The notes below the pieces were generated by a model. That model made no database searches, had not been told where the DNA came from, and saw only the letters and a program-made list of their open reading frames with translations. The translations under genes were made by a program, and so were the position numbers. From Erysipelothrix amsterdamensis (GTDB lineage Bacteria > Bacillota_I > Bacilli_A > Erysipelotrichales > Erysipelotrichaceae), in NCBI RefSeq assembly GCF_940143175.1, contig NZ_OW659496.1, positions 496,001-560,000 of the forward strand: 64,000 nucleotides of DNA, read 5' to 3'. The first letter of the stretch is position 1; every line of letters starts with the position of its first letter. Shown here in pieces: positions 32,924 to 48,847 of the stretch.

Positions 32924-34243
32924 CTATTTCACAAACGCAAGAGCCCCCATTGGATCCCATGGTTCAAGTTCAATAACTTCATCGCTTTCGAGAGCTTCAA
33001 GATAATCTTTTGGTACATATTTCTTATCTACCATAACTTGGTAGTTGTATTCATCAAACCATTCATCCGTCATGGTGTAATAGCCTTTACGTGCATTACG
33101 ATCAGTTCCCCAACTGTTTTCAACGTTCCAACGTGTTGGTTTTCCATTTTCATCCAAATTAACGCCGACAAAAACCATTGCATGTGTCATTAAACTATCG
33201 CCATAATCAAGACGACCGGCTTTATCGAGATTTAATTCAGTATTCAAAACGCCTTTGAAATCAAAGGCATCTTTAGCCATAATACCATTATCGCGATCAT
33301 GCATTTGTCCAACATCACATCCAAACCAGACAGGTTTTCCATCTTGAAGTTGCGCAATTGCAGCCTCTTTTAAGATATGACTGGGTGCATTCACATACTT
33401 AATTGGATCGGCTTCTTTTACCGTACCGAGATATTTAACAGTAAATGCTTTTCCATAAGGCTTATCTTTAGTAGGGGCATTAATAATACTTACTTTATCC
33501 TTAAGATTCCAACCTACATACTTATTCATAAAATCAACCGGTGTAATGGTATCGATTTTTTTATAGTTGCCATCTTTATCATGGTATTCATAACTGAATG
33601 ATTCAGGTGGTGTTCCAAGACATAAACATAGAATATGATAAATTTCATATAACATTTCATCTTTACTACGTGGGTTTTCGGATTCGCGCAGTTCATAAGC
33701 AAATTCACGAAGTTTTGAAGTGATGATTTTATTCATAAATGCGGAATTTGAACTGTGGTAGGTTTCAGGCATTGCTTCTTTAGGAACAACACCGTATTTT
33801 TCTAAGATTCCTTTAAACATATCCCATTGACCACCATCTTGAATAGGACCTGATAAAAGATGTTGAATTAAACGACCATCGGTTGGTTCGTCTTTAGTTT
33901 CTAGAATGCTTTCGAGAAAGTAATTTGCTTTTTCGAGTTTATCCCAAAAGAATGGATACGTTTCCGAGAATTCGAATGAATCAACGTTTAGACATCCAAG
34001 AACATCGGCGCGCATTGTGTTAAGGGATGCGAACATCCAGCAACGTCCACTTGCCTTTTGATTTGTAATTTGACCTGTTTTTGCTTGAACAGAAAAGGCA
34101 TCAGGGTAGCGTGATGATAATGAATGATCTACAGCGATGTCGTGAATTCCGTTGTGTGTCACTGCGTTTTCGAGCGTACAAGCCGCTTTATTATTTTGAT
34201 ATTCCGATTTAAATTCGGATAACAATGATTTTGAAATAGTCAT
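32924..34243 (-). CDS. pepC: Aminopeptidase C (bleomycin hydrolase family, C1 peptidase)
   Basis: 439 aa cytoplasmic cysteine aminopeptidase. Catalytic Cys in KASGRCWMFASLN (~67-79), His in SLMTHAMVFVG (~360) and Asn in VENSWGTD (~383). The C-terminal arm of PepC enzymes, which blocks the active site to enforce exopeptidase activity, ends here in GALAFVK. AGGAGGT precedes the ATG. Together with OppABCDF it would complete peptide use for nutrition. Two metalloregulator-like boxes surround its promoter. Confidence 0.94.
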   Translation of the reverse strand: MTISKSLLSEFKSEYQNNKAACTLENAVTHNGIHDIAVDHSLSSRYPDAFSVQAKTGQITNQKASGRCWMFASLNTMRADVLGCLNVDSFEFSETYPFFWDKLEKANYFLESILETKDEPTDGRLIQHLLSGPIQDGGQWDMFKGILEKYGVVPKEAMPETYHSSNSAFMNKIITSKLREFAYELRESENPRSKDEMLYEIYHILCLCLGTPPESFSYEYHDKDGNYKKIDTITPVDFMNKYVGWNLKDKVSIINAPTKDKPYGKAFTVKYLGTVKEADPIKYVNAPSHILKEAAIAQLQDGKPVWFGCDVGQMHDRDNGIMAKDAFDFKGVLNTELNLDKAGRLDYGDSLMTHAMVFVGVNLDENGKPTRWNVENSWGTDRNARKGYYTMTDEWFDEYNYQVMVDKKYVPKDYLEALESDEVIELEPWDPMGALAFVK

Positions 34244-34258
34244 TATAGGACCTCCTGT

Positions 34259-34284
34259 ATTAAATTAGGGACACCTAATTTAAT
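34259..34284 (-). promoter_or_regulatory. Perfect 11-bp inverted repeat (MntR/SirR-like box) downstream of the pepC -10
   Basis: ATTAAATTAGG-N4-CCTAATTTAAT. The TTAGG-N4-CCTAA arrangement matches the arm sequence and spacing of Gram-positive MntR/SirR (DtxR-family) boxes. It covers the predicted transcription start of pepC. Confidence 0.6.
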
Positions 34285-34288
34285 TGGT

Positions 34289-34317
34289 ATTATACGCCTG
34301 TATAATAAGTGTGTCAA
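34289..34317 (-). promoter_or_regulatory. pepC promoter
   Basis: On the minus strand TTGACA (34312-34317) and TATAAT (34289-34294) with a 17-nt spacer: a perfect consensus sigma-A promoter, so repression is probably needed to control it. Confidence 0.8.
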
Positions 34318-34318
34318 G

Positions 34319-34335
34319 AAAGGCTAACCTAATTT
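34319..34335 (-). promoter_or_regulatory. Second MntR/SirR-like box, upstream of the pepC -35
   Basis: Minus strand AAATTAGGTTAGCCTTT keeps TTAGG-TTAG-CCT of the MntR/SirR consensus with a mismatched last two positions. It abuts the -35 of pepC. Confidence 0.5.
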
Positions 34336-34342
34336 CTATCCT

Positions 34343-34369
34343 TTAGCACTCTAATGTTGACAGTGCTAA
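34343..34369 (+). promoter_or_regulatory. CIRCE element 1 (HrcA operator)
   Basis: TTAGCACTC-N9-CAGTGCTAA, one mismatch from the CIRCE consensus, overlapping the -35 of hsp20. Confidence 0.9.
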
Positions 34370-34393: not shown

Positions 34394-34420
34394 ATAGCAC
34401 TCTGTTAATGGGAGTGCTAA
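34394..34420 (+). promoter_or_regulatory. CIRCE element 2 (HrcA operator)
   Basis: ATAGCACTC-N9-GAGTGCTAA, one mismatch from consensus, placed in the start region of the hsp20 transcript. Confidence 0.9.
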
Positions 34421-34436
34421 AATAGGAGGTAATTAT

Positions 34437-34829
34437 ATGAAACAAACAGTAAGACCGACAACACTTTTAGAAAGCTTGTTTGGAGACGATTTTATGAATA
34501 ACGCAGGTTATGGAACCGGTATTGATATCTATCGTGAAAATGGAAGTTATTACGTAGAAATTGAAATGCCAGGATTTGAAAAGGAAGATATTGATATCGA
34601 ATTTAGTGGTGATATCTTATCCATTCAAGCAACACGTCGTGAATCAGAAGAGAGCGAAGCGAAAAATTACTTTTATCGATCACGAAATCAAAGAAATATT
34701 AAACGACAAATTCGTTTTGCGGAAGTTGATGCGAATGCAATTGATGCAAGTTACGAACAAGGTGTACTCCAAATTACACTTCCAACAAAAGTTGAAGAAC
34801 AGAACTCTAGTAAGATTCGTGTTCAGTAG
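34437..34829 (+). CDS. hsp20: Small heat shock protein (Hsp20/alpha-crystallin)
   Basis: 130 aa. The alpha-crystallin domain (~25-118) contains GIDIYRENGSYYVEIEMPGF and the conserved A-x-x-x-x-G-x-L motif ASYEQGVLQITLP, followed by a short tail with IRV, the I-x-V motif used in oligomerisation. It holds unfolding proteins without ATP. Double CIRCE control indicates HrcA repression released on heat stress. AGGAGGT precedes the ATG. Confidence 0.93.
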   Translation: MKQTVRPTTLLESLFGDDFMNNAGYGTGIDIYRENGSYYVEIEMPGFEKEDIDIEFSGDILSIQATRRESEESEAKNYFYRSRNQRNIKRQIRFAEVDANAIDASYEQGVLQITLPTKVEEQNSSKIRVQ

Positions 34830-34858
34830 AAAAGAGGAGAAATCCTCTTTTTTTTATT
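34830..34858 (+). terminator. Terminator of hsp20
   Basis: AAAAGAGGA-GAAA-TCCTCTTTT followed by T-run, right after the stop. Confidence 0.9.
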
Positions 34859-34927
34859 TGTTAATTTTTGGTGAACAATGCTCACCTTCGAACGAAGGGT
34901 GTTATAATTTAAGTGGAGTTGATGCAA

Positions 34928-36253
34928 ATGATCGAATTATCTAAAAATATTGAAACCGTGATGATGGAGCTTACTGACCGTGGATTTGAAGTTTTTGTGG
35001 TTGGTGGCTTTGTTCGTGATGCGCTAATGGGACATCGATCATTTGATATAGACTTATGTACCAATGCTTTACCAGAACAACTTTTAAAAATTTATGAAAA
35101 ATATTCACTTGAATCAAACGGTCATGATTATGGTGTTAAGTTTATGTTCGGTGAAGAACATTTTGAAATCTCTACAATGCGGCTTGAAGGGGATTATGAG
35201 GATGGTAGACGGCCATCACGTGTAGAATTTATTAATCACCTTTTTGATGATTCAAAGCGTCGTGATTTTACGGTGAATGCTCTTTATTATCATCCGCGTC
35301 ATGGTTTAATTGATTACTATAATGGGGTCGATCATTTAAAAAATCATAAACTTCGTGTTATTGGCGATCCTAAAGTTCGTTTTAAAGAGGACGTATTACG
35401 AATTGCGCGTCTTTATCGCTTTAAATCGGAACTCGGTTTTGATATTGATGCAGAAACATTATTTGAGGTACAATCACAAATAGAGTCACTTCAACGTCTA
35501 AAACTTGTACAAATTTATCCTGAACTATCACGTTATTTGAAGGGACCCTATTTTTTAGAAACAAGCCTTCACTGTCCGGAATTCTTAATGACACTTTTTC
35601 CGCCGCTCAAGGCAACGCTAGGATTTGATCAGCATAACCCTTTCCATGAATACTCGCTATACGAGCATACCATTCGTACAATGCAAGGAATTCCAAATCG
35701 CGTTGATTTGAAATTGGTTGCTTTGTTTCATGATTTAGGAAAAATTAATGTGCAAACTGTAGATGATTTGGGTATTGCACACTATCCGGGTCATGCGCAA
35801 GCAAGTTGTATCATTGCGCGCCCTTATTTTGAAGCATTACAATTCTCAATTAAGAAGCGGACGTATTTAGAGAAATTGATTCTTGAACACGATTTAAAAG
35901 TACAACCAGTATCTGCGCAACTCCAACAACTCATCCGAGTTCATGGAATTGAGTGGGTTGAGGACTTAATGGCAGTAAAGCGTGCTGATAACTTAGCGAA
36001 AGGTTCGCGAGCACAGTATCAGCTACAACGATGTACGCATATAAGTCAAATTATCCAAGAAATTAGAGATCAAAAACATCCTACATCCATTCGTGATCTT
36101 GAGATCACGGCGTCGGACTTAAAAAAATTAGGTATTGAAGGAAAAACAATTAATAAGTATTTAAATATGTGTTTGGATTGTGTTATTGAAGGAACGCTTC
36201 CAAATACACATGAAGCACTGTTGAAGTGTCTTAAGGAGGTTATTGAAGGATGA
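34928..36253 (+). CDS. cca: CCA-adding tRNA nucleotidyltransferase / poly(A) polymerase family
   Basis: 441 aa class II nucleotidyltransferase that adds or repairs the tRNA 3' CCA end. Catalytic head VVGGFVRDALMG with DIDLCT (two Asp) at ~20-45, RRDFTVNALYY (~115), and the RRxxR-like base-selection helix FKEDVLRIARLYRF. A C-terminal HD domain (HDLGKINVQTVDD) is present. ATG 34928 is preferred because GGAG lies 9 nt upstream; alternatives at 34913 or 34922 are too close. The end overlaps the next gene by 4 nt. Confidence 0.9.
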   Translation: MIELSKNIETVMMELTDRGFEVFVVGGFVRDALMGHRSFDIDLCTNALPEQLLKIYEKYSLESNGHDYGVKFMFGEEHFEISTMRLEGDYEDGRRPSRVEFINHLFDDSKRRDFTVNALYYHPRHGLIDYYNGVDHLKNHKLRVIGDPKVRFKEDVLRIARLYRFKSELGFDIDAETLFEVQSQIESLQRLKLVQIYPELSRYLKGPYFLETSLHCPEFLMTLFPPLKATLGFDQHNPFHEYSLYEHTIRTMQGIPNRVDLKLVALFHDLGKINVQTVDDLGIAHYPGHAQASCIIARPYFEALQFSIKKRTYLEKLILEHDLKVQPVSAQLQQLIRVHGIEWVEDLMAVKRADNLAKGSRAQYQLQRCTHISQIIQEIRDQKHPTSIRDLEITASDLKKLGIEGKTINKYLNMCLDCVIEGTLPNTHEALLKCLKEVIEG

Positions 36254-47781: not shown

Positions 47782-48847
47782 GAAAATTCTTGGTGGCCTC
47801 GTGCTTGTGTGTGTGATTGCGGTTGTAGGTTTTATGCTTCTATTCAATATCAACACACAAAGCATTTCAAAGGACAGTCAAACTGTTCTTTTTAATGTGA
47901 ATGAAGGTGACACGATGTCAACAGTGATCGACCGCTTAGCGGATGATGGAATTGTTCGTTCTGCTTTTTTTACTAAAATCAAAGCGAAGTTAGGGCATCA
48001 CGATCAACTCTATGAAGGTCAATTTAATCTTGATAAGAGTTGGGATGTCGATCGTATTCTTGAGTATCTCGAAAAACCATCTTATGAACATGATAAGACC
48101 GGTTCAGTTGCCATTACACTTATTGAGGGAAGCTGGGCCAAGGATATTGCTAAGAAAATTGCTTCTGAAACAAATACAACAGTAGAACGTTTTTTAGAAC
48201 TTTGGAATGATCCAAAATATATTGAATCATTAATGTCTCAATATGAGGTTCTATCAAAAGATTTACTCAAAAATAAAGATGCAAAAGTATTGTTAGAAGG
48301 ATATCTCTATCCAGATACATATGAGTTTAATGCTAATAATTCTGAGGAAGAAATTACAGAACGACTTATTGCTAACGGTAACGATAAGTATCAAAACTAT
48401 AAAGATCAAATTGATTCTTTAGGGATGACGCCATATCAACTTTTCAGCTTGGCGTCGATTGTTGAGTATGAAGCTCCGGGATATGAAAACATGCAAGATG
48501 TTGCAGGTGTATTTATGAATCGACTAAAACAAGGGATGAAACTTGAATCCAGTGTGACGATTTGTTACGCGCTTTATGAATTTGAAGATTGGGATGATTG
48601 TGAGTCAATGACCAATAATCAAATTGATTCCCCTTATAATACCTATCGTTATGAAGGCATTACTCCGGGACCGATTCTTAATCCTTCACAGTCTGCGATT
48701 GAAGCGGTGATTAACTATTCACATCATGACTATTTATTCTTTGTTGCGAATGTTAAGGCAGATAAAAACGATCCAGATTATGGAAAAATATATTATTCAA
48801 AAACATTTGAAGAACATGACCAACGTGTCAAAGAGATACTCAATTAA
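47765..48847 (+). CDS. mltG: Endolytic murein transglycosylase MltG (YceG)
   Basis: 361 aa. One N-terminal membrane helix (~9-28, GGLVLVCVIAVVGFMLLFN), a LysM-like region (~40-95), and the catalytic YceG domain with LASIVEYEA (catalytic Glu, ~225), VAGVFMNRL and PYNTYRYEGITPGPI-like substrate groove. It cleaves nascent glycan strands outside the membrane. Start 47765 is the last ATG before the membrane helix; it lies inside the DUF1292 gene, so an upstream start in that frame cannot be excluded. Confidence 0.92.
   Translation: MTTHTKKILGGLVLVCVIAVVGFMLLFNINTQSISKDSQTVLFNVNEGDTMSTVIDRLADDGIVRSAFFTKIKAKLGHHDQLYEGQFNLDKSWDVDRILEYLEKPSYEHDKTGSVAITLIEGSWAKDIAKKIASETNTTVERFLELWNDPKYIESLMSQYEVLSKDLLKNKDAKVLLEGYLYPDTYEFNANNSEEEITERLIANGNDKYQNYKDQIDSLGMTPYQLFSLASIVEYEAPGYENMQDVAGVFMNRLKQGMKLESSVTICYALYEFEDWDDCESMTNNQIDSPYNTYRYEGITPGPILNPSQSAIEAVINYSHHDYLFFVANVKADKNDPDYGKIYYSKTFEEHDQRVKEILN

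Follow-up and report, generated by a model that had tools for sequence, protein, structure and literature searches.

The promoter of pepC, in the stretch of Erysipelothrix DNA analysed here (the window, 64,000 nucleotides), carries two palindromic boxes which we read, with a probability of roughly 0.8, as operators of the cell's own MntR, a regulator of the SloR/ScaR type; the manganese-bound repressor would block pepC and manganese starvation would release it. That pepC might stand under the control of a metal regulator was proposed in the initial annotation, and the proposal is supported, at the level of sequence, by a DtxR-family gene in the genome, by the conservation of the boxes and by a palindrome shared with the promoter of the mntR run.

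The pepC promoter and its product

The window belongs to a genome, here G000, that consists of a single contig (C1; 1,908,712 bp) and is one of the 13 Erysipelothrix genomes compared (G000–G012). In the window, pepC (32924–34243, minus strand) and hsp20 (34437–34829, plus strand) are divergent. The features of pepC and of the intergenic region are as follows:

32924–34243, minus strand: pepC, encoding a 439-aa C1B cysteine aminopeptidase of the bleomycin-hydrolase family (PF03051, E 2.8e-175)
34259–34284, no strand: box 1, a palindrome of two 11-bp arms (34259–34269 and 34274–34284), 100% complementary, with a 4-nt loop
34289–34294, minus strand: pepC -10, TATAAT, invariant across the four pepC genomes
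34312–34317, minus strand: pepC -35, TTGACA, with a 17-bp spacer to the -10, invariant across the four pepC genomes
34319–34332, minus strand: box 2, TTAGGTTAGCCTTT, a weaker copy that differs from the core at 2 positions and stands one base upstream of the -35
34343–34369 and 34394–34420, no strand: two CIRCE-like inverted repeats in the divergent hsp20 promoter, with one mismatch each to TTAGCACTC-N9-GAGTGCTAA

Box 1 is an exact TTAGG-N4-CCTAA palindrome, with the 14-bp core TTAGGGACACCTAA at 34265–34278, and box 2 follows the same pattern with two mismatches. In its 18-bp form box 1 reads AATTAGG-N4-CCTAATT, a form that the mntR promoter shares. The initial annotation had described a perfect 11-bp inverted repeat around a TTAGG-N4-CCTAA core, a TTGACA-17-TATAAT promoter between two boxes and a second box against the -35; the sequence bears out this description, with the promoter on the minus strand and box 2 (34332–34319) one base away from the -35. 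The further statement that the repeat covers the start site holds for the 26-bp palindrome, at the edge of which lies the start predicted from the -10 (about 34282); it fails for the 14-bp core, as this starts about 4 bp downstream of the predicted start. The pepC boxes overlap the core promoter and the start, as far as the latter is predicted.

PepC aligned with PF03051 over residues 3–433 (profile positions 2–438 of 438), as a full-length member of the C1B family, and its best solved relative was 4k7c, Aminopeptidase C (E 6e-130, residues 5–436); no NCBIfam family was found for it. The stretches GRCWMF, THAMV and ENSWG align with 4k7c, with Cys, His and Asn in place, and we take these to be the catalytic triad. 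PepC is thus, by profile and structure match, a papain-type cysteine peptidase. Such an enzyme as PepC needs no metal, and the M29 and M42 aminopeptidases are, as families, metal-dependent. The nearest named relative is that of E. tonsillarum DSM 14972 (95%), in a listing which may omit the window's own species.

As for the divergent promoter, TTAGCACTC-N9-GAGTGCTAA is presumably the CIRCE motif and we assume that the CIRCE-like repeats at hsp20 stand for control by HrcA, which is probably independent of the pepC boxes. A CIRCE-like pair (≤3 mismatches) was also seen beside the hsp20 relatives of G001, G002, G006, G007 and G012; in G010 a single repeat was seen.

The regulator and its transporter run

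The DtxR/MntR-family regulator to which the initial annotation had pointed was found in G000, where one PF01325 gene (C1 48382–49032) lies above the Pfam cut-off and three weak matches lie below it. Its PF01325 (DNA-binding), PF02742 (dimerisation/metal) and PF04023 (FeoA-like) domains all scored above cut-off, and the closest solved structures by sequence were SloR, 6o5c and ScaR. It has all eight SloR ligands, namely H76, E80, C123 and H125 of site 1 and D7, E99, E102 and H103 of site 2, as these are listed in section 9 of PMC9253540. Twelve of the 13 MntR copies of the genus have the complete set, while that of G009 holds seven of the eight, with Asp at 99. Glu 99 presumably corresponds to the position of DtxR Cys102. 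Such a ligand set favours manganese over iron or zinc as the predicted effector. The curated NCBIfam cut-offs for MntR were missed by the G000 protein, both by the equivalog, which was the best model (121.2 vs 350 bits), and by the general MntR model (61.9 vs 138). The protein is therefore not an NCBIfam MntR equivalog, and we group it, by its ligands, domains and closest structures, with SloR/ScaR as a putative regulator of that type.

The mntR gene opens a run in which genes for a PF01297 binding protein, an ATPase and two permeases (PF00950) follow. Among the NCBIfam models, zinc AztC ranked first for the binding protein, followed by manganese/iron EfaA and MntC, all below cut-off, and the manganese/iron and manganese models scored best for the ATPase, again below cut-off. 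The mntR promoter carries an exact AATTAGGTTAGCCTAATT, with 20 bp between the end of its 14-bp core and the start codon, and by reading the core begins 9 bp after the -10 at mntR and 10 bp after it at pepC. A divergent 220-aa frame is found 113 bp from the mntR box. Thus, the genome holds a cognate regulator with the same motif at the promoter of its own regulator and transporter run. The expectation that TTAGG-N4-CCTAA would be met upstream of mnt-type transporter genes was confirmed before the mntR-ABC run, as well as before mntR or transporters in species without pepC. No NRAMP (mntH-like) gene was found in any of the 13 Erysipelothrix genomes, by a search that was positive in 7 of 14 controls.

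An extra TTAGG half-site, some 22 bp away from the full box, stands right before the mntR -10 (G000:C1:about 48320–48363; L021 around 520–565), and likewise in the mntR promoters of G005, G011, G003 and G007.

Conservation and motif counts in the genus

All 13 genomes have mntR, the copy of G010 being just 33% identical. The exact core was found upstream of mntR in 10 of them and with one mismatch in G004; a box within 1 mismatch was absent at mntR in G009 and G010, which have the two most divergent copies. When strands were merged, WTTAGG-N4-CCTAA occurred at 27 distinct sites in 12 of the 13 genomes. Seven of these lie inside long frames, and 19 of the other 20 precede mntR (9 sites; G000, G001, G002, G003, G005, G006, G008, G011 and G012), a metal transporter (6) or pepC (4). 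The transporter sites stand before an ABC ATPase in G001, G002, G003 and G012, where the best NCBIfam matches of the ATPases were manganese or manganese/iron models, below their curated cut-offs, and before a PF01297 lipoprotein in G006 and G007, where the binding proteins scored above the PF01297 cut-off. In G009, one of the 27 sites coincides in part with the end of a 177-aa frame and precedes a transposase-like frame. A divergent frame 157 bp from the G003 site resembles, by eye, methionine sulfoxide reductase.

In four of the 13 genomes (G000, G004, G005 and G011) pepC was found, and they form one group on the MntR tree (98/99 support), which is built from this one gene and has long outer branches. 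As the four belong to one clade, they do not represent four independent gains. The initial annotation had made its proposal depend on conserved boxes, and conserved they are in each Erysipelothrix genome with pepC. The intergenic alignment of the four shows no change in TTGACA or GTATAAT. In box 1, TTAAATTAGG and CCTAATT are likewise constant, around N4 spacers that read TGTC, TGAC, TGGC and GATA; the outer arms lose their symmetry in G011, where TTAGG-N4-CCTAATT is kept. Box 2 lies at the same place in every one of the four as TTAGG-N4-CC[T/A]TT, with TTAGG, CC and TT invariant and with the spacers TTAG, CTAA, GATA and TATG, and the distance between the boxes is always 54 bp, which is about five helical turns. 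Fixed arms with changing spacers would be the trace expected of a dimeric repressor that contacts the arms. Because the mean column identity of the whole alignment is 82%, the invariance of the arms is less telling than it would be at a greater distance.

Upstream of PepC elsewhere, a box within 1 mismatch was absent from the 350 bp examined at 77 of 78 testable loci, the exception being Erysipelothrix tonsillarum; the 78 came from 80 of 301 matches, two of the 80 having been left out as their match begins near a contig end. Another 26 PepC loci, from 88 non-Erysipelothrix genomes of the family or order with a match, had no box within 1 mismatch in the 300 bp upstream, where three loci (L212, L218 and L229) have fewer than 300 bases; one match with 2 mismatches was seen at L212.

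The PepC proteins of G000 and G011 are 95% identical, while the adjoining hsp20 and cca are at 69% and 72% (32924–34243 vs 34437–36253), which would reflect either an unusually strong constraint on PepC or a recent exchange.

Matches to M29 and M42 were found in all 13 genomes. Two M29 genes are present in seven of the nine genomes without pepC (G009 and G010 have one); by their coordinates the paired genes adjoin in G001, G002, G003, G006, G007 and G008 and are apart in G012. Of the four pepC genomes, three carry a single M29 gene, and in G004 the sole M29 (L242) is broken across frames as assembled. The single M29 of G000 (C1:1160206–1161420, L243) lies, by reading, between the same flanks as the pair of G001, one thrS-like and the other sugar-kinase-like. 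No box within 1 mismatch was found at the M29 loci of G000 (L243), G001 (L244) or G006 (L245). This pattern may fit a replacement of a lost metalloaminopeptidase by PepC, and it may also be a coincidence, as the pepC genomes are one clade and G009 and G010 have a single M29 as well.

For the motif counts, a first-order Markov model, built on the window, supplied the chance expectations. The 14-bp core by itself is not rare: genome-wide, 0.9 exact matches are expected and 3 were found, one of them within a gene. The 18-bp AATTAGG-N4-CCTAATT, on the other hand, is expected 0.012 times per genome and was found twice in G000 as an exact match, in the promoters of mntR and pepC. In G005 and G011, too, the sole exact 18-bp matches are those at mntR and pepC, and G004 has the exact form at pepC and one mismatch at mntR. 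Box 2 alone is uninformative since matches at its level (≤2 mismatches) come at chance number (about 20 expected per window, 22 found), and its support as a candidate operator is its conserved position in the four genomes.

The perfect 11-bp palindrome was rejected as stand-alone proof, as such palindromes are over-represented in the window: 16 overlapping records (11-bp arms, loops 3–8), several of them a single repeat counted at adjacent positions, were obtained against 0, 0, 0, 1 and 0 in five Markov controls. Terminators may be behind most of them. A large regulon, built on cores with 0–1 mismatch, was also rejected since the reversed-pattern control outnumbers the motif in G000 (127 sites vs 65). 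The 65 sites are made up of 49 that were classified, the pepC site and 15 extra copies of one repeated 14-mer. With one 2-mismatch site added, 44 of the 50 classified rows lie inside frames of at least 100 aa and six lie outside, namely the exact mntR site and five with one mismatch. Among these sites outside long frames, the one at G000:C1:647621 has identical letters in G004 and G005 and is without a clear promoter; it is possibly a third site. The sequence TTAGGTACCCCAAA occurs 18 times in G000, on either strand, and the three copies that were checked (L005, L006 and L013) share one 283-aa frame, which is probably an insertion-sequence gene.

Over the 13 genomes, exact strand-wise matches to WTTAGG-N4-CCTAA summed to 42 against 41 for the reversed control, with no enrichment of the motif by number, and the 18-bp form at ≤2 mismatches stayed below its control in four of four genomes (7 vs 22 in G000). 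Mismatch-tolerant counts are without weight because the reversed controls give equal or higher numbers. The case for the motif as a putative operator rests on its position and conservation and not on its count.

Proposed mechanism, rival explanations and known systems

In a manganese-replete cell, metal-loaded MntR dimers would occupy box 1, which lies at the start site. They would also fill box 2, which adjoins the -35, probably aided by the box 1 dimer through a cooperativity that we infer. Repression by a block of RNA polymerase is predicted from this placement of the two boxes, and MntR on both of them would keep the polymerase off the consensus pepC promoter. Under scarce manganese MntR would release its sites, and pepC would be induced together with the mntR-transporter genes. 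The co-repressor of MntR at pepC is presumably manganese. The presumed benefit is that PepC would take over the trimming of peptides when M29 and M42 lose their metal; a manganese-sparing role is plausible because PepC, as a cysteine peptidase, has no need of a metal. Tentatively, and with somewhat more doubt than confidence, we extend this to a manganese-sparing peptidase switch in one clade, in which the strong-site MntR regulon would consist of metal uptake and PepC, PepC would have been under MntR since its gain and would offset the loss of the second M29, and the use of host peptides would be kept up while the host withholds manganese.

It is unlikely, in our judgement, that the operator is real and bound by MntR while the effective metal is iron (SirR-like), iron and manganese, or zinc, with pepC answering to another metal. 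PF01297 proteins serve manganese, zinc or iron, and for the binding protein of the run zinc AztC ranked above manganese/iron EfaA and MntC, all below cut-off. Moreover, some regulators of the DtxR family answer to iron or to both metals, such as SirR of S. epidermidis and TroR of T. denticola in excerpts of PMC1764749 and PMC2628430, respectively. However, Glu at 99 and the full SloR sets of sites 1 and 2 argue for manganese, as do the manganese regulators SloR and ScaR among the best solved matches and the run ATPase, which scored best with manganese/iron and manganese models, though below cut-off.

The perfect 11-bp palindrome, starting from about +1, could fold in the transcript, and box 1 might then be a 5′ RNA stem-loop that stabilises the pepC mRNA or tunes its translation, with an incidental likeness to an MntR box; we give this hardly any credence, since it is the same primary sequence, and not just any stem, that recurs at the mntR and transporter promoters, the outer arms of G011 are asymmetric and yet retain TTAGG-N4-CCTAATT, Rfam gave no match at gathering scores, and box 2 lies outside the predicted transcript. 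That the boxes are relics or have no effect, pepC having been acquired behind an mnt-type promoter with neutral regulation, would agree with the restriction of pepC to one clade and with the presence of hsp20 and cca together, without pepC, in G010 and G012, which is consistent with an insertion of pepC there (in G001, G002, G006 and G007, the 1.5 kb examined beside hsp20 did not include cca). We regard it as quite improbable, as the arms stayed fixed while the spacers varied in a clade where the adjoining hsp20 is down to 69% identity.

Control of pepC by MntR, as proposed here, resembles the streptococcal SloR/ScaR/MtsR/PsaR regulons in the regulator family, the ligands, a metal ABC transporter as the core target and paired palindromes over the promoter. 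Binding of SloR to paired sites is cooperative, with an overlap between one site and the -35 (excerpts of PMC12096823), and oligomerisation of MtsR and control of the secreted serine protease PrtA by PsaR are reported in the sections of PMC9253540 compared. The second target here would be, unlike in those regulons, a cytoplasmic cysteine aminopeptidase, and the SloR element is of a 6-6-6 type, as given in excerpts of PMC12096823, whereas a TTAGG-N4-CCTAA palindrome is present here. The putative pepC operator matches the 14-bp consensus TTAGGNNNNCCTAA, suggested in part of PMC8464063 as a redefinition of the IdeR/DtxR target. The staphylococcal sir-box overlaps the sitABC start (excerpt of PMC1764749). 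In the portions of text compared, the IdeR/DtxR and SirR systems are chiefly iron regulons, unlike the manganese-favouring regulator predicted here.

The regulon descriptions in the compared parts of PMC9253540 and PMC3616900 name manganese transporters, metal exporters, ribonucleotide reductases, sugar and citrate metabolism and PrtA, and among these we found no cytoplasmic aminopeptidase; SloR affects 686 genes according to the same portions (PMC9253540 / PMC3616900), and the comparison covered the targets that these portions name. In the open-licence literature, no work joining MntR, SirR or manganese with pepC was found by title among the matches listed, none was found that joins PsaR, pepC and manganese, and no description of a metal regulon of Erysipelothrix was found among the matches listed. 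Thus, control of pepC by MntR seems to be undescribed, and we see a known kind of system with an apparently new target, because the regulator is SloR/ScaR-like and yet the regulon descriptions compared hold no cytoplasmic aminopeptidase. For Erysipelothrix, the finding offers a regulator together with its predicted operator motif. If it is confirmed, the supply of amino acids from peptides would join uptake and glycolysis among the processes rewired against the withholding of manganese by the host, and this through a very small regulon of two strong sites.

Manganese sparing is described for S. aureus, where a metal-independent enzyme helps in manganese starvation (a manganese-independent aldolase, and RsaC; excerpts of PMC9973326 and PMC12421985). 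That aldolase is glycolytic, whereas the peptidase here would be directly under the manganese repressor, with a sparing role that is presumed. The nearest peptidase case found is mapA, a methionine aminopeptidase gene which the compared part of PMC524172 tabulates among the predicted DtxR operons of C. diphtheriae.
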